From assembly GCF_002753895.1 (NCBI RefSeq), contig NZ_NJER01000001.1:124001-188000 (forward strand): a stretch of DNA of 64,000 nt, in the 5' to 3' direction. Below are positions 18,678 to 27,321 of the stretch, one piece after another. The notes beneath the pieces are model-generated. The model did not search any database and had not been told where the DNA came from. It saw only the letters and a program-made list of their open reading frames with translations. Each line of letters opens with the position of its first letter. Positions within the stretch are counted from its first letter, which is position 1. Source of the DNA: Halobacteriovorax sp. JY17 (lineage in GTDB: Bacteria > Bdellovibrionota > Bacteriovoracia > Bacteriovoracales > Bacteriovoracaceae). The translations under genes and the position numbers were made by a program.

Positions 18678-18688
18678 ATTAAAAAAAA

Positions 18689-18710
18689 GGCAGAAGGAAT
18701 TCCTTCTGCC
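18689..18710. terminator. Rho-independent terminator, bidirectional
   Basis: A perfect 22-base palindrome (GGCAGAAGGAA and its complement). On the minus strand it is followed by eight T residues, so it is a strong terminator for the cyclase/MCP-remnant transcript. On the plus strand it follows the E1 stop with a weaker TATAATTT tail. Confidence 0.85.
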
Positions 18711-18719
18711 TATAATTTC

Positions 18720-19087
18720 TTATGCGCTTCTCTTTCCATTTACTAATTCTCTAACTTTTTCAACGACTAGAGTCAGATCATCTGCTTCTTTTTGCAGCTC
18801 TTTTGAAGAAGCTTCTGTACTAATAACAACATCATTATTTTGATGAGAAACTTGATCGAGAAGTTCCATCGCTCTTGAAATTTCATCAACACCTTGTGAT
18901 TGCTCTTTAGAGGCATTGGCAATTTCTGCGACTTTTCTATTTACGTTATCAACATTATTGATAATTTCATCGAGAACAACTTTACACTCTTGCGCTCTGT
19001 CTTTACCTTTTGTGACAGCGTTCTTTCCATCTTCAATAATTTTCTCCATTACTGAAGTTGTACTTGAAACGATTGTTTCGACGATAA
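18720..19087 (-). pseudogene. C-terminal remnant of a methyl-accepting chemotaxis protein
   Basis: The frame encodes about 121 residues of the C-terminal half of an MCP signalling coiled coil: an IVETIVSSTTSVMEK helix, then NVDNVNRKVAEIANASKEQSQGVDEISRAME and a descending helix ending NGKRSA. Everything before this is missing: no ligand domain, membrane spans or signalling tip. The MCP frame begins exactly at the adenylate cyclase stop codon and is closed upstream by a stop. The first ATG (19049) sits inside the coiled coil without a ribosome-binding site. The simplest reading is a deletion that fused the cyclase gene end to an MCP tail, keeping the MCP's terminator. A coupled 109-residue peptide cannot be excluded. 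Confidence 0.8.
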
Positions 19088-21319
19088 TTACTTAGAAGTA
19101 AGAGTATAAACACCATCCCAATCAGGTGGTGGAGGTATCTCTTTAAAGTTCTCGCATCTTTCAATGTAGATCTTTGATGGATTGGTTTTCTCTCTTAAGA
19201 GAGGGAAGCGCTCCAGTTCTAGCTCAAGTGAAATTTTAAAACAATCGAGGGCCTTATCCCATTCTTGATTCTTGTAGAAAGAGAGTCCTTCTGAGAAATT
19301 CTTTTGAAGATTGATTAATAAATCAGAGGCATCTTCTCTTGTCTCTAGAACTTCATAAGTCGTCACAGGTTCAGACTTTCCAACTACGAGAATAGTATCT
19401 AATTCTCTAAAGAGAAATTTTTCTTTTTCACAATCGTTAAGAGTAAAGTGAGAGGTCTGATTGAAAATACCATATTGTTTTGCGGCTTCTTCAAGTCTTG
19501 CTGCAAGATTTACTGAGTCGCCCATCATTGTATAATTCATTCTAGAAGCTGAACCCATATTTCCTGTTACAATCTCACCTGTATTGATACCGATACGCAT
19601 TCTCATTTCATGAACAATTTGCGGCCACTTGTCACCCTCTGATACCCATTTCTCTCTCAGCTTCAATAGAGCTCGCTGCATTCTTACTGCAACCGTAAGA
19701 GCTCTCGTAGAATGGTCTTCAAGAGGCATAGGAGCGCCAAAGAAGGCGATGATGGCATCACCTTCATACTTATCTAATGTTCCTTTTTCTTCGAGAAGAA
19801 TATCAGTCATTGCCGTTAGGTACTCATTTAGAAGTTCTACCAGTTGAGTTGCAGATAGTTTTTCCGAGAATGTTGAGAAACTTTGAATGTCAGTAAAGAA
19901 CGCAGTTCTCGTTCCACATTCTCCTCCAAGGGAAGGATGCTGTCCCGTAGAGTACATCTCATCAATAAGTTCAGGCGAAATATAAGAGCCGAAAGCATTC
20001 TTTAAGAAGGCCTTGTCTTTGTTGGCCAAGTAGAAGTGCAGGAAAGTATTCCACGAGTAACTACAAATAATGGAGAAGAAGCAGAAGAAGAGTTTTACTT
20101 CATAGCCTGCAGGGATTAGATGGTAAGTATCGTAGTAGTAAATTCCCCCAATAAGCAGAACAGTTGAGAGTAAATCTAAGATCGCATTCCCAAAGAATTG
20201 AATAAGAAGAATGATTAACGATCCAGCGAGTAAAATTGCCCAAGAAAGGAACGTTGAATTTTGCTGAGGTTTGTAGAAGTCACCATTTAAAAGCATATGA
20301 GTCATATTCATATGAAAGTAAACTCCCGGTAACATAGAATCAACTGGAGTATGCCTAAGGTCATAAGCACCGTAAGCACTCGCTCCAACGAAGACAATCG
20401 TGTTATTGAACACGGACTTCATTTTTTCATCTTCTGGAAAGGCTTTAACAATGTCAGCGATACTTACTCTTGGAAATTGTTCCTCATTTCCAAACCATTT
20501 AACATTTGCTTCACCTTTATAGTTAAGTTCAATATTTCCATTTGCCAGTTTGAATTTGTAATCACCAATATTAAGCATTTCAAGAACGGGGCTATCGCCT
20601 GTGTAATCAGTGTAGGCCTGGAGCCCGTAGGAAGGAAGATATAGCGTATCGATATTACCAACAAGTTGATAATGTCTCATTATACCATCACTGTCGGCTT
20701 CAACTTGAATGTGACCTAGACTTACATCAGTATTTAAAAGAGTTTGGATTGGCCAGACAGCCTTTGAGACTTTCTTAGGCTTAAGCTCTATTCCCTCACT
20801 ATTCTTTGTATCAATAACAAAGTTGTAGAGTTGATCGGGAAGTTCTTCAAAGTGGTCAGCTCCCTGTGTGTCGAGAGAATAGGGGAGAATGACTTTATTT
20901 CCTGGAATAGATTGGAAGTTCACAATCGATTGCGCCATGATATCGTCAACCGAGGTTTCACCACAGCTCATACTATTTTCAGCAAAGAAGACGTCAAAGG
21001 CAATAACTCTTGCGCCAAAAATTCTTAGCTTATCAATTACATCGGCCCACGTTTGTCTACTTACTGGCCACTGCCCTAATTCTTTTAGAGAGTAGTCATC
21101 AATATCTGCCATAACTAATTTCTTATCAAACTTCTTCTTATCAAGAGTTTGTCTCATTCGAAAATCGAAGAATCTATTTTCAAAGAATGTAGTATAGGAA
21201 ATTTTCTCTTTGATACTAGGGTCTTCTATATCTCTCTCTGTCAGTGAGAAAAATACACTGAGAGCAGAGAAAGAGATGATAATGATAAACCCTAGGTATT
21301 TTATGATCTTAGACCACAT
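19088..21319 (-). CDS. CHASE2-domain class III adenylate/guanylate cyclase
   Basis: A 743-residue membrane protein. An N-terminal anchor is followed by an extracytoplasmic CHASE2 sensor domain (about 35-345). Three predicted membrane helices follow at about 353-432, and then a class III cyclase catalytic domain (about 468-650). Visible catalytic features are FTDIQSF (metal Asp), DKYEGDAIIAFFG (purine-binding Lys and second metal Asp) and NYTMMGDSVNLAARLE (transition-state Asn and Arg). A TPR-like helical tail follows. It should make cAMP, or less likely cGMP, in response to a periplasmic signal. It sits last in a minus-strand run with a FecR protein and a TPR/barrel protein, and AGGAGAAAGG precedes the ATG. 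An MCP remnant abuts its 3' end. Confidence 0.9.
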   Translation of the reverse strand: MWSKIIKYLGFIIIISFSALSVFFSLTERDIEDPSIKEKISYTTFFENRFFDFRMRQTLDKKKFDKKLVMADIDDYSLKELGQWPVSRQTWADVIDKLRIFGARVIAFDVFFAENSMSCGETSVDDIMAQSIVNFQSIPGNKVILPYSLDTQGADHFEELPDQLYNFVIDTKNSEGIELKPKKVSKAVWPIQTLLNTDVSLGHIQVEADSDGIMRHYQLVGNIDTLYLPSYGLQAYTDYTGDSPVLEMLNIGDYKFKLANGNIELNYKGEANVKWFGNEEQFPRVSIADIVKAFPEDEKMKSVFNNTIVFVGASAYGAYDLRHTPVDSMLPGVYFHMNMTHMLLNGDFYKPQQNSTFLSWAILLAGSLIILLIQFFGNAILDLLSTVLLIGGIYYYDTYHLIPAGYEVKLFFCFFSIICSYSWNTFLHFYLANKDKAFLKNAFGSYISPELIDEMYSTGQHPSLGGECGTRTAFFTDIQSFSTFSEKLSATQLVELLNEYLTAMTDILLEEKGTLDKYEGDAIIAFFGAPMPLEDHSTRALTVAVRMQRALLKLREKWVSEGDKWPQIVHEMRMRIGINTGEIVTGNMGSASRMNYTMMGDSVNLAARLEEAAKQYGIFNQTSHFTLNDCEKEKFLFRELDTILVVGKSEPVTTYEVLETREDASDLLINLQKNFSEGLSFYKNQEWDKALDCFKISLELELERFPLLREKTNPSKIYIERCENFKEIPPPPDWDGVYTLTSK

Positions 21320-21339
21320 AAAAAACCTTTCTCCTTACT

Positions 21340-22923
21340 TTAGAAGGAGTATTTAATTGAAGATGATGTTACGTGTTTTGTGTAATTGTAATCCGCTTTA
21401 AGGGAAGAGTTCTTAGTATAGTTATATCCAACAGAGAATTTTAAGTGATTAGAAATTTTCTTGGTTAACTTGATACTAGGGGTAAATGTCTTCTCTGTAC
21501 CTCTAATAGAACTTTCATTGGCATCTGTATAGCTTACAAATGTCATTGAAGCTCCAATATGAAGAGTGATTTTTGGAAGGATATTTGGATTGATATAATC
21601 AACTCTCATAAGAGTTGAGTCCGTTGAATTCTTTTGGTTATTATAGGTATCTAATGAATCGTAAGAGAGAAGAAACATAAAGATTGTCGAATTGGAAGTT
21701 AAGTAGAGCTGATCGACTGAGAATGAAGTAGTTTTATTAAAAAGTGTCGTCGTATGAGAGCTTAAATCCTTGTATTTAAACTTTAAGCTCGTGTCTCCCT
21801 TCGTGAAGAATTTAAATTTCTCTCCAAAAGTATAAGTGGTCGATCTTGAGTAGAATGCCTTTCTAGCAAGAGCGGTCTTATATTTACCATTGTAATTATA
21901 ATCAATATTAAAAAAAAGTGAGGCAGGGTTACTAAAGGCCTTATGCTCATAAGACATATTTAGAGTAGGAGAGATGTCGTAAGCGTCTTCAGACTTTACA
22001 GTATCAGAATCTCTATTTGTATGATTCTTAACACTCATTCCTAATTCTGGATTGACTATAAACCTCTTCTTTAAAATAAAATCATAACCTGTATTCATTC
22101 TAGACTTTAAAACAAATGACTCCTCTCTAGAAGCTGCCGAAGACGGTAGATCATTTGTTAGAGAAATATTACTATCGTAAGTAAAGTCTTGATTAAAAGA
22201 TAAGCTCCATCTCTTAGAAGAAATTCTCTTTCCATTGTAAAGAATATTTGGATCGAGTCCAAATTCTCTTTCAATTTCTTTCTTTCTAGAACCAATTTCC
22301 TTAGCAAGTGAGGACTTACTATCTTCTTCAACTGCTTTATCCATTTGAGGAAGAACAAATTGTTTTACTAGTCTCTGAGCATCTTCATTTTCACGGGCCA
22401 TAGAGAGGAGAACCTCTCCCGTTTGAAAGCGTGCAATTTGTTTCAAGTTCTTTTCAGCAGTCTCAGAATTTAAAATTTGCGTGTAGTAAGTCTTTGCAAC
22501 TTTATTTTCTTCGAGGATTTGAGATATATGAGCGACATAGTAGATTGATGAATCTTTCTTATAGTCCATAGACGCAGATTTCTTGAATGCAATTCTGGCT
22601 TTTATTAAATCGTTATTAGCGTAGAGAGCCTGTCCGTACTCATAGTAAATATCTTTAGCTCCACTCTTTGCCTTAATTGCTTTTATAAAGAGAGGGATCG
22701 CCTTGTCGTACTCTTGAAGCCTATTGTAGGAAAGAGCAGTGAGGTAGAACTTAGTACTTCTTATAGATTTTGTTTCACGAAGAGAAGAGAGGCCCTCTAT
22801 CACTTTCGTGTAGGAGCCCTTTTCAAATAATTCGAGTGATTTCTTTATCGTACTTGCTTCATTAGCTGAAACATTTGAAGTGAGAATAAAACCTGTTAAT
22901 ACAAGTGCACAGTAGTTTTTCAT
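21340..22923 (-). CDS. TPR-repeat outer-membrane beta-barrel protein
   Basis: A 527-residue exported protein. A signal peptide (cleavage after NVSA) is followed by about 200 residues of TPR-like helix pairs (for example YYEYGQALYANNDLIKARIAF). The second half is strongly alternating and rich in Tyr, Ser and Thr, with repeated beta-strand patterns, and ends in IKYSF; a C-terminal aromatic is typical of outer-membrane barrels. This TPR-then-barrel plan recalls surface-assembly barrels but I cannot name the family. It lies between FecR and the CHASE2 cyclase on the same strand with short gaps (63 and 20 bases), so the three are probably one operon and one envelope-sensing pathway. Confidence 0.75.
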   Translation of the reverse strand: MKNYCALVLTGFILTSNVSANEASTIKKSLELFEKGSYTKVIEGLSSLRETKSIRSTKFYLTALSYNRLQEYDKAIPLFIKAIKAKSGAKDIYYEYGQALYANNDLIKARIAFKKSASMDYKKDSSIYYVAHISQILEENKVAKTYYTQILNSETAEKNLKQIARFQTGEVLLSMARENEDAQRLVKQFVLPQMDKAVEEDSKSSLAKEIGSRKKEIEREFGLDPNILYNGKRISSKRWSLSFNQDFTYDSNISLTNDLPSSAASREESFVLKSRMNTGYDFILKKRFIVNPELGMSVKNHTNRDSDTVKSEDAYDISPTLNMSYEHKAFSNPASLFFNIDYNYNGKYKTALARKAFYSRSTTYTFGEKFKFFTKGDTSLKFKYKDLSSHTTTLFNKTTSFSVDQLYLTSNSTIFMFLLSYDSLDTYNNQKNSTDSTLMRVDYINPNILPKITLHIGASMTFVSYTDANESSIRGTEKTFTPSIKLTKKISNHLKFSVGYNYTKNSSLKADYNYTKHVTSSSIKYSF

Positions 22924-22986
22924 TGGGCCAAATCCATTTAACCTAAAGTATTAATATTAGTGACTTATATTATAACTAAAATTCCT

Positions 22987-24456
22987 CTAATTAGAATTGT
23001 TAATATTAAATTTTACCCGAGTACTATTGTTAAGTACTTCGTTTCTCTCGTCTTGTGCATCTTCAATTGTCTCATCAATTGTATCTTGAGCATCTTCAAC
23101 AAGTTCGTCTAACTCTGCCTGATCTATTCCTGCAAAGTCTCCTGAACTGCCGTCTGAACCGTCTATGCTTGAGTCTCCTGCATCTGAAGAGAAATCCTCT
23201 GATATTGCTGCTTCCATTGGTTTATCCATTGGAGCAAGTTGTGGAGGAGCGTCTCCTCCGGCAGAAGCTGTGCCTTTTCCAGTAGAACTACCATCAGAAT
23301 TAACACTCGCTGGTGCTCTTTTTCCATCTACTGTAGGAACAAATTTCCCGTCGTTAGTTAGAGTGAAATTCTTATTCTCATAGTGACCAGTTGTAGGATT
23401 AAATCCTCCGAAGTTTGCTGGTGGAATATAAGTTCCTGTTGCCGAATCAAAAACTGATCCTGGAGGTGGAGCGATGTACTGTGCTGTTGCAAGGTCAATA
23501 TAGCCACCTGCTGGCGGAGCAATCTCTCCTGTCGCAGAGTTTACAGAGCCTTCTGGTGGAGGATTGTTAGCAGCACCTAGAGCTTTCTCTTTATCAACTT
23601 TGTCAACAACTGCGCTCGTTGCAGATTTTCCAATAACTTTTTCAACTTGGTCTGCAACTTTTGCTTTATTTGAAAATCCTTTTGCATCTACGCCCGGAGG
23701 TATTACACTTCTAAATTTCTTCTTAGGTCCTTTCGTATCCGTTGCTGCCTGGTCTGGTGCTTCTTTAGAACCGTCGTTTGACTGCATTGATTCAAGTTGA
23801 CCTGGGTTAATTTTTACAGGAGTAGTCGCTCTTGAAGTTGTTCCTGGTGAAACACCTGAGAACTGACCCTTCGTTACAATAACGGCTTTATCACTAGAGA
23901 CAACTTTCTCTAATGCGCTCTGAGAGACTTGTACGTTTCTTATTGCATCACTTAGCTGGGCCATCGCAACAGCACCAGAGAATGTTACAAGAGCAGTATT
24001 TTCGTTCACTGGATTATAAGTAACCATGAAGTCGGTTCCTCTTACACCCATAGCTGCAGTTTTTGTTTTAATGAATAATTTAGATTTGTCTTTATCTTTA
24101 TTATCTAGGTAATTCTTTGTAACTTTAGATCTTAGTGAACCTTTCATTAGCGTAATAATACCAGCTTCTTTTTTAGGAAACTTACTAATTGCCATTTCTG
24201 ACTTTGGACCAAGGTTCATTTGTGATTTATCAATGAAGAGAAATTTAACAAAGGACTTACTTTCTGTTTTTACAATGAATCCCTCATTGACCCACGAACC
24301 TTTCTTTAAAGAAATTTGTTCTTTGGTTGTTGGATTTTCTGCGACAACATTTCCTTTAAGGATAATTGCTTTTGCAACACCGTTATTGGCCAAAGCAGAG
24401 TGCTCGACGCAAAGTAGGAGAGTAGTCATTAATAAGATTTTTTGTAAAAAGTTCAT
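22987..24456 (-). CDS. FecR domain protein with Pro/Gly repeat region
   Basis: A 489-residue exported protein with a signal peptide (cleavage after SALA). The FecR domain spans about residues 25-165, with conserved segments KKGSWVNEGFIVKTESKS, LGPKSEM and MGVRGTDF. The middle holds a low-complexity repeat region (about 296-361) and the C-terminus is acidic and Ser/Asp-rich (SSDAGDSSIDGSDGSSG), ending in a charged helix. FecR domains of this exported type are often encoded beside CHASE2 cyclases and TPR proteins, as here, and are thought to belong to periplasmic sensing modules. GGGAAG precedes the ATG. The domain call is firm and the pathway role is inferred. Confidence 0.85.
   Translation of the reverse strand: MNFLQKILLMTTLLLCVEHSALANNGVAKAIILKGNVVAENPTTKEQISLKKGSWVNEGFIVKTESKSFVKFLFIDKSQMNLGPKSEMAISKFPKKEAGIITLMKGSLRSKVTKNYLDNKDKDKSKLFIKTKTAAMGVRGTDFMVTYNPVNENTALVTFSGAVAMAQLSDAIRNVQVSQSALEKVVSSDKAVIVTKGQFSGVSPGTTSRATTPVKINPGQLESMQSNDGSKEAPDQAATDTKGPKKKFRSVIPPGVDAKGFSNKAKVADQVEKVIGKSATSAVVDKVDKEKALGAANNPPPEGSVNSATGEIAPPAGGYIDLATAQYIAPPPGSVFDSATGTYIPPANFGGFNPTTGHYENKNFTLTNDGKFVPTVDGKRAPASVNSDGSSTGKGTASAGGDAPPQLAPMDKPMEAAISEDFSSDAGDSSIDGSDGSSGDFAGIDQAELDELVEDAQDTIDETIEDAQDERNEVLNNSTRVKFNINNSN
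23370..23570 (-). repeat. Coding repeat: about 17-residue PP-G-TG-Y units in the FecR protein
   Basis: The translated segment (residues about 296-361) contains four imperfect units of the form PP-x-G-[SYF]-x-x-[AT]-[TA]-x-x-Y/I: EGSVNSATGEIAPP, GGYIDLATAQYIAPP, GSVFDSATGTYIPP and GGFNPTTGHYE. It is a flexible Pro/Gly spacer, probably extracytoplasmic. Confidence 0.7.
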
Positions 24457-24580
24457 TTTTCTTCCCTAAGTCCTAGTTAAGTTAGGCAGATAGCCCTTTT
24501 ACTATTCGTCTATTATATCTCTAAACTTGAGAGAGTTTATTTAGGTAGGAAATGAAGATTTAACTTGTTGAAAATTCTAC

Positions 24581-26427: not shown

Positions 26428-27321
26428 ATGCTTGATAACCTTAAACAAAACTTCGTGGACCATGTGCGTCAGTTACAGAACCTTATAACTGAAGAACTTA
26501 AGAAGAGAGATCCTTCAATTGAGATCACAGAAGATAATTGGAAGCGCGCTGACTTCAAAGGGAATGATGGTGGAGGGGGAATCACTAGGGCCTTCGCTGG
26601 AGATATTATAGAGAACGCTGGAGTGAATACTTCTGTCGTCTATGGTGCGATTGCGCCAGACTTTGCTAAGAAAATTGGTAGTACGGACGAGACGATGTGG
26701 GCAACGGGAATTTCCCTCATCATTCATCCAAGAAATCCTAAAGTTCCTACAACTCACGCAAACTTTAGAATGATTCAGGCCGGAGAGAAATTCTGGTTTG
26801 GTGGCGGGGCTGACTTAACTCCTTACTTCCCACATACTGAAGATTTTAAATACTTTCATAAGGTTTGGGCGGACGCTTGCGGGCCTTATGGTAATTACGA
26901 AGAATTTAAAGTTAAGTGTGATGACTACTTTGTAAATAAGCACCGTGAAAATGAGATGCGTGGAGTTGGTGGAATCTTCTTTGATCACTTTAACACTGGC
27001 GACACTGAAAGCGATCTTGCCATGGTGAAAGATCTATCTAATCATTTTATAGATTCATTCTTTCCTCTTCTTGATAAGAGAGTCAGTGAAGAATTTACGG
27101 ACGAAGATGAAGACTTTCAACTTCATAGAAGAGGCCGCTACGTAGAGTTTAATCTCTTACATGATAGAGGAACAATGTTTGGACTTCAAAGTAATGGAAG
27201 AACAGACTCTATTCTCATCTCTCTTCCAGGGAGAGTTAAATTTAGTTACAAATACGCACCTAAGGCCAATTCTCCTCATGAAGAAATGCTTAAGTATTAC
27301 TATCCTATGAATTGGGTCTAG
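26428..27321 (+). CDS. hemF: Oxygen-dependent coproporphyrinogen III oxidase
   Basis: A 297-residue protein, the normal HemF length. It decarboxylates two propionates of coproporphyrinogen III to vinyl groups using oxygen, giving protoporphyrinogen IX in haem synthesis. The family signature is clear: FGGGADLTPYFP, preceded by HANFRMI and followed by GVGGIFFDHF and the C-terminal GRYVEFNLLHDRGTMFGL. It stands alone on the plus strand with its own terminator at 27343-27366. Haem demand fits the several c-type cytochromes encoded nearby. Confidence 0.95.
   Translation: MLDNLKQNFVDHVRQLQNLITEELKKRDPSIEITEDNWKRADFKGNDGGGGITRAFAGDIIENAGVNTSVVYGAIAPDFAKKIGSTDETMWATGISLIIHPRNPKVPTTHANFRMIQAGEKFWFGGGADLTPYFPHTEDFKYFHKVWADACGPYGNYEEFKVKCDDYFVNKHRENEMRGVGGIFFDHFNTGDTESDLAMVKDLSNHFIDSFFPLLDKRVSEEFTDEDEDFQLHRRGRYVEFNLLHDRGTMFGLQSNGRTDSILISLPGRVKFSYKYAPKANSPHEEMLKYYYPMNWV

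Follow-up and report, generated by a model that had tools for sequence, protein, structure and literature searches.

A FecR gene, a TPR-barrel gene and a CHASE2 adenylate cyclase gene in Halobacteriovorax sp. JY17: a near-obligate pair with a facultative third partner

The window, a 64,000-nucleotide stretch of the Halobacteriovorax sp. JY17 genome (contig NZ_NJER01000001.1, positions 124,001 to 188,000), carries three adjacent minus-strand genes, here called FEC, BAR and CYC, which encode an exported FecR-domain protein, an exported tetratricopeptide-repeat (TPR) and beta-barrel protein, and a CHASE2 adenylate cyclase of 489, 527 and 743 residues, respectively (Table 1). In relatives of this bacterium the FecR and barrel genes are a near-obligate pair, of which the cyclase is a facultative third partner. 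The tight minus-strand array described in an earlier sequence-only reading was confirmed at its exact coordinates, with intergenic gaps of 63 and 20 bp, and the gene identities given there were borne out, FecR and CHASE2 cyclase by Pfam, TPR plus barrel by an AlphaFold2 model.

FEC features, in this order, a signal-peptide-like start, the FecR domain, Pro/Gly-rich repeats, a low-complexity region and a C-terminal strand-like motif. Judged by eye, the N-termini of both FEC and BAR are signal-peptide-like and devoid of a lipobox. In FEC this stretch directly precedes the FecR fold, and neither an N-terminal cytoplasmic sigma-binding domain nor a transmembrane helix was found in its sequence or model. 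Residues 57-232 of the model superimpose on the periplasmic signalling domain of PupR (Z 16.0), and the FecR region also matches a Parabacteroides anti-sigma factor (two entries). The C-terminal pattern, a home-made one picked by eye after viewing the alignment, is found in 56 of 87 FEC proteins and in 31 of the 36 in cyclase context, shuffled tails giving a mean of 12.9. Other FecR sites in the window genome also adjoin signalling genes. One (L207) is divergent from an FHA-domain gene, one (L209) lies beside a HAMP histidine-kinase-like gene, and one (L210) beside SpoIIE/HAMP and histidine kinase genes; at a further site (L205) the overlapping gene, coding for 253 residues, has no Pfam match.

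BAR matches TPR profiles weakly (best TPR_16, 9.8e-6, under the Pfam cut-off), and no barrel family was matched in Pfam. The AlphaFold2 model, obtained with a 61-sequence alignment, has a mean predicted local distance difference test score (pLDDT) of 92.2 and a predicted template modelling score (pTM) of 0.75, and is made up of TPR helices in the N-terminal part and 14 long strands in the C-terminal part. The folds closest to the barrel part in VIA-align are 14-strand porins, CymA (Z 22.7, 283 residues, 3.9 A) and OmpG (Z 21.4). Of the complete relatives, 60 out of 75 entered model alignment A3 and 48 out of 79 entered A4.

The catalytic residues of class III adenylate cyclases are a metal Asp pair, a substrate Lys/Thr and an Asn-Arg. 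CYC, aligned to its best match, P. aeruginosa CyaB (3R5G, E 4e-33), retains the expected Asp, Lys, Asp, Thr, Asn and Arg positions (FTDI 475, DKYEGD 516, NYTMMGDSVNLAARL 595). It is the sole Guanylate_cyc match in the window genome, in which a search limited to class III and class I found no class I adenylate cyclase; by sequence, CYC looks like the only enzyme making cyclic AMP (cAMP) in this cell. Ten places binding cyclic nucleotide monophosphates (cNMP) were counted in the same genome. A second CHASE2 protein encoded there is a histidine kinase (630 residues) followed by a sigma-54-type response regulator (499 residues; L051:6720-10127, contig C3). At least one CHASE2 match is present in 128 of 129 family genomes.

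Named genomes were scanned with a FecR pattern, and 203 relatives were confirmed, mostly from Bacteriovorax-like organisms, the others from Oligoflexia, Bdellovibrionales, a Bdellovibrio sp., or sources labelled just Proteobacteria or bacterium. The best 80 loci were retained; of 82 FecR genes, three are cut by contig ends, leaving 79 evaluable. A barrel gene directly follows the FecR gene on the same strand at 78 of the 79 (the exception is L093), a count describing that FecR subfamily, because the query was built from barrel-adjacent genes. FecR and barrel distances are correlated (r = 0.857 over 86 pairs, maximum 0.094 in 200 permutations), which shows linkage, not contact, because any two co-inherited genes would correlate. 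The barrel profile matches 126 of the 129 family genomes at E up to 0.001, some of them weakly; the window BAR, used as single query, has no match in 14 genomes of other families of the phylum.

The cyclase is distributed differently. A CHASE2 cyclase gene resides beside 33 of the 78 pairs, 31 times downstream on the same strand, once downstream on the opposite strand and once upstream. None is visible at the other 45, though at three of these (L098, L103, L119) the contig ends at the barrel. Cyclase matches are found in 111 of the 129 family genomes at E up to 1e-30. Adjacency was scored for 122 cyclase matches against 150 listed barrel matches, 19 matches scoring below 260 bits, which are fragments of genes or matches to the cyclase domain, being left out and some contigs ending at the cyclase locus. 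A listed barrel adjoins the cyclase in at least 52 of the 122, in 51 on the same strand, and 49 of these 51 have 11-43 bp between match ends. At least five changes between pair-adjacent and other cyclases were counted in a tree of 55 sequences, and the order FecR-barrel-cyclase is retained across two large parts of the tree. In a tree of 87 barrels, a clade of 32 has 31 cyclase-linked members, BAR included; five more links lie outside the clade, downstream (L047, L139), upstream (L135), convergent (L046) or divergent (L178). Cyclase context changes at least seven times on the barrel tree, in several gene orders. Both are quick trees with long branches, and the latter count is approximate because several links sit on such branches.

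Table 1. Features of the operon and its borders, in positions of the window
Feature	Positions	Strand	Basis
FEC: exported FecR-domain protein, 489 aa	22987..24456	-	open reading frame, Pfam, model
FecR domain (PF04773), FEC residues 62-163	23968..24273	-	Pfam E 3.7e-11
C-terminal amphipathic strand-like motif of putative role, FEC residues ~478-486	22999..23025	-	alignment pattern
BAR: exported TPR + 14-strand beta-barrel protein, 527 aa	21340..22923	-	open reading frame, Pfam, model
TPR helical domain, BAR residues ~35-222	22258..22821	-	weak Pfam, AlphaFold2 model
14-strand barrel domain, BAR residues 239-527	21343..22209	-	AlphaFold2 strands; CymA/OmpG match
CYC: CHASE2 adenylate cyclase, 743 aa	19088..21319	-	open reading frame, Pfam, alignment
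CHASE2 domain, CYC residues 44-366	20222..21190	-	Pfam E 1.9e-46, over cut-off
Class III cyclase catalytic domain (Guanylate_cyc), CYC residues 472-655	19355..19906	-	Pfam E 6.1e-23, over cut-off
TATAAT -10-like hexamer upstream of FEC, possible promoter; no -35 match seen	24512..24517	-	by reading; absent from scan listing
5'-truncated chemoreceptor (MCP) remnant, neighbour rather than proven part	18720..19082	-	match to L052 MCP
Terminator-like hairpin, 10-pair stem + T run, would close the unit	18688..18711	-	sequence scan

The interval between arsC and FEC holds an inverted repeat and the TATAAT hexamer, both found by reading, and the transcription unit therefore probably begins at FEC. 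A terminator-like match weaker than the one in Table 1 is found at the BAR/CYC boundary, where it overlaps the likely ribosome-binding site of CYC. The remnant of a methyl-accepting chemotaxis protein (MCP) begins 5 bp past the CYC stop codon, and its 120 codons correspond to residues 405-524 of an intact MCP of 524 residues found after the cyclase in L052, as if a deletion had taken the front of the gene. The Pfam scan covered seven window genes (barrel, cyclase, FecR, ArsC, the outer-membrane protein OMP, DUF3943 and the MCP remnant); neither an extracytoplasmic function (ECF) sigma factor nor a TonB-dependent transducer nor a cAMP phosphodiesterase family was found among these seven. At a different locus having the same arsC/OMP/DUF3943 site (L042:8075-8731), a truncated barrel gene without adjacent FecR or cyclase match is probably a decaying copy of the locus.

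Elsewhere the pair keeps other company. FHA-domain proteins are found beside it in six members of one clade; some pairs face a convergent PAS histidine kinase, behind which lies a response regulator (scanned in one locus), and some adjoin large lipoproteins of one family, sharing a Cys-rich N-terminal region. These lipoproteins (e.g. L034:3188-7780, L141:5504-7627, L146:4763-7651) differ past the Cys-rich region, and the members scanned have mostly no Pfam match. The lipoprotein-family profile has matches in 110 of the 129 family genomes. Among the best 53 listed matches, 25 of the 28 above 170 bits are near barrels, as are 0 of the 25 just below, a result with some circularity, the profile itself having been derived from proteins encoded next to barrels. 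By a home-made predictor, and over loci related to each other, 16 of 57 neighbours of at least 250 residues of non-cyclase pairs are lipoproteins, vs. 14 of 295 background genes (odds ratio 7.8, p 8e-7); beside the 33 cyclase-type pairs none of 7 such neighbours is. The window genome has two tandem lipoproteins of the family (983 and 1197 residues, C1:1061434 and C1:1064537, L204:7435-14122) far from the operon, with no barrel match near them in the 19-kb stretch opened.

Outside the family, plasmid-borne relatives were monitored by tblastn; BAR and FEC found no match, and CYC did. Nine plasmid-record matches of the cyclase, picked by hand, were opened. CHASE2 is present in six (Paracoccus, Shinella, Ruegeria, Ensifer PDNC004, Azospirillum oryzae and S. 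meliloti), and an annotated FecR gene is near five of the six, missing in A. oryzae only. FecR is near none of the three cyclases lacking CHASE2 (Leptospira, Legionella, A. brasilense); because of the hand picking, this contrast is evidence from small numbers. On Paracoccus pAMI5 and Shinella p1 a TPR-barrel-like protein is encoded first, then the FecR protein and last the CHASE2 cyclase, the barrel being assigned from weak profile matches and reading. The FecR domains of these alphaproteobacterial trios are homologous to that of FEC (hhalign probability 93.3%), homology of their barrels to BAR being undemonstrated outside the TPR part. The FecR proteins of alphaproteobacterial operons of this make-up (L196:4403-6370, L197:2939-5488) end in domains resembling Slam cargo (TbpB_B_D 2.3e-4 and 0.019, FHBP_C ~2e-3, none reaching its Pfam cut-off); SlipAM is matched at 0.02 by one of the TPR-barrel-like proteins, and in Salipiger a TbpB-like protein adjoins a related TPR protein. 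Azospirillum thermophilum has a barrel-like gene plus FecR and no annotated cyclase within the 13 kb opened. In A. oryzae (L192:2759-6642) the gene directly after the CHASE2 cyclase is annotated as a ShlB/FhaC-type outer-membrane transporter, which may be a barrel of another kind adjoining such a cyclase.

On balance we lean towards a TonB-independent and sigma-factor-free cell-surface relay with cAMP as output, running from the outer-membrane barrel to the periplasmic FecR protein, to CHASE2 and to cAMP. This relay is favoured because the pair is near-obligate, the link to the cyclase recurs in several orders, the FecR fold is PupR-like, FecR and CHASE2 co-occur on plasmids, and precedents exist in the NsrA and Campylobacterota systems discussed below. 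The barrel would meet something at the surface, either a ligand or a lipoprotein encoded elsewhere, while the TPR domain of BAR would hold the FecR protein, perhaps via the strand conserved at the C-terminus of FEC. On a change of state the FecR domain might then act on CHASE2 and switch the cyclase on or off, and cAMP might act via some of the ten places that bind cNMP. Pairs of this kind seem, in other lineages, to be wired to an FHA protein, to a histidine kinase and regulator, or to a lipoprotein. The factors sensed by CHASE2 are described as not known in the available part of one source (PMC5192318); if the chain from barrel to soluble FecR to CHASE2 holds true, what CHASE2 reads may be a partner protein rather than a small ligand. 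As neither a class III cyclase other than CYC nor a class I enzyme was found, one envelope complex may set cAMP for the whole cell in this predator.

Several observations weigh against the relay. Up to 70 of the 122 cyclase matches, an upper bound, have no listed barrel nearby, and in 20 such loci which were opened a FecR match lies beside the cyclase in only two. Both of these FecR genes are divergent from the cyclase, and one of the two loci has a distant barrel match (E 5e-5); at the other 18, one of them at a contig end, neither FecR nor barrel is adjacent. The canonical gene order is mostly one inherited block (31 of 32 members of one barrel clade), and several of the other cyclase contexts sit on long, unsure branches. 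The C-terminal strand pattern is absent in 31 of the 87 FEC proteins. Finally, in S. meliloti three genes which are targets of cAMP/Clr, including those for a FecR-domain and a TPR protein, are dispensable for perception of the plant signal, as reported in the available part of PMC5498481; this speaks against assigning a sensor role to all FecR and TPR proteins, though these are targets, not shown to be upstream partners.

The envelope-to-cAMP module of the sequence-only reading thus stands in part: the genes form a module, and a relay is its best reading, but co-conservation of all three is facultative. The neighbourhood survey of CHASE2 cyclases suggested there found the three genes conserved together in two large parts of the cyclase tree, and in other orders, yet up to the 70 matches just mentioned do without a listed barrel. 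Prey contact, named there as a possible signal, was not supported. No tested feature points to prey, and since similar trios are carried by Paracoccus and Shinella plasmids, a prey-only role is unlikely.

More tentatively, the relay may be one case of a wider system. The FecR and TPR-barrel pair could be a general TonB-independent signalling platform of Bacteriovoracales, an analogue of FecA-FecR with an exchangeable inner output (CHASE2 cyclase, FHA protein, or histidine kinase and regulator) and, as outer partner, a rapidly evolving lipoprotein whose Cys-rich docking domain is conserved; in the lineage of the window it would feed the only cAMP source.

A rather unlikely alternative is surface display with feedback, in which the barrel would be a translocon like Slam, of the type 11 secretion system (T11SS), with the FecR protein or a lipoprotein as cargo or plug, and the cyclase would read export status rather than an outside ligand. 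Periplasmic TPRs joined to a 14-strand barrel are the T11SS/Slam layout (PMC8406197, PMC12282271, in the parts available), and by its model BAR has this architecture. The sequence does not follow: the window BAR has no match to SlipAM/DUF560 at E up to 10, and SlipAM lies outside the 25 most frequent of the 94 families matched by 61 BAR-family members. The TPR_Slam profile touches 41 of these 61 at E up to 10 (best 2.4e-5), amid many generic TPR matches; no Slam chain is among the VIA-align rows listed for BAR, which excludes nothing. BAR was accordingly not retained as a T11SS member. Of a cognate cargo, with its C-terminal 8-strand barrel, no typical example was seen among the seven window genes scanned or in the FEC model. 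The cargo-like matches of the alphaproteobacterial FecR partners, the SlipAM-like match there and the Salipiger gene pair are in line with display, but those barrels are not clearly homologous to BAR outside the TPR part, and the window FEC model shows no C-terminal cargo barrel. Similarly, the enrichment of lipoproteins beside non-cyclase pairs speaks for display and their absence among the neighbours of cyclase-type pairs against it. FEC residues 24-116 match the cell surface anchoring domain of an antifreeze protein (5ix9; Z 7.2, 75/76 residues, 23% identity), but the sequence match is just E 0.16, and a Z under 8 can mean a common arrangement. In the available main texts of the two T11SS sources the word 'cyclase' is absent, and no 'FecR' was counted in them either.

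Less probable still are two separate systems at one locus, the pair being a structural or transport unit of the envelope and the cyclase governed by CHASE2 alone. The cyclases lacking a listed barrel, and the 45 pairs without visible cyclase, would fit. In 9 of the 20 loci opened, moreover, the cyclase stands alone, its immediate neighbour being homologous (60.7-66.3% identity) to the coproporphyrinogen-oxidase gene which flanks the window cluster at 26428-27321, and the same locus therefore exists with and without the pair. Mere co-location is at odds, however, with the seven or more changes of cyclase context in differing gene orders, with the plasmid contrast between cyclases having and lacking CHASE2, and with FecR genes beside CHASE2 proteins in Burkholderia (PMC5192318) and Campylobacterota (PMC9239204), as far as these texts were available. 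An exopolysaccharide channel, for which the best Foldseek E value would speak (BcsC, a TPR-plus-barrel cellulose channel, 4.6e-11, TM 0.30), was rejected, BAR having 14 strands and no polysaccharide gene being present among the seven window genes scanned.

No published account of this operon was recognised in literature searches covering few subscription journals. The relay favoured here shares with FecA-FecR, PupB-PupR and FoxA-FoxR a common plan, made up of an outer-membrane barrel, a periplasmic FecR-fold domain and an inner-membrane output, and FecR-type signalling domains are indeed contacted by outer-membrane transducers, as described for FoxR/FoxA (PMC11637429, part of the text). In these systems the output is a sigma factor, in the window a cyclase; the window FecR protein further differs in being soluble and exported, and the window barrel in bearing TPRs. 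In the Burkholderia BiofilmReg operon an exported FecR protein adjoins a CHASE2 receptor, but the former is a LysM-FecR protein, the output is a histidine kinase, and no barrel is mentioned in the part of the source available (PMC5192318). In the MtxA operon of Magnetospirillum an exported TPR-containing protein is followed by a CHASE2 adenylate cyclase; MtxA differs from the window protein in its Ig-like plus TPR structure, and FecR goes unmentioned in the available text (PMC4439547).

Two systems come closer. In S. meliloti the outer-membrane barrel NsrA is needed for cAMP signalling by CyaK and CyaD1/CyaD2, which are CHASE2 cyclases, on a protein signal from outside (PMC7529298, PMC13001267, both in part). 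By description, this places an outer-membrane barrel upstream of CHASE2 cyclases, as proposed for the window; at the single S. meliloti CHASE2 cyclase locus opened, a FecR gene lies close by in convergent orientation, and no TPR-barrel operon was seen in that stretch. In Campylobacterota, FecR, TPR, CHASE2 adenylate cyclase and phosphodiesterase genes are clustered, and the authors suggest one pathway (PMC9239204, as far as available). FecR and TPR genes thus lie beside a CHASE2 cyclase there as in the window, a likeness by description, but the cAMP phosphodiesterase has no counterpart among the seven window genes scanned, and the TPR protein is not termed a barrel in the available text, whereas that of the window is modelled as one. 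The idea of a path from the envelope to a CHASE2 cyclase is hence already known in outline from the Campylobacterota clusters and from Sinorhizobium NsrA; new here are the lineage, the model of the barrel, the near-obligate pairing of FecR and barrel genes, and the way this pair switches partners.

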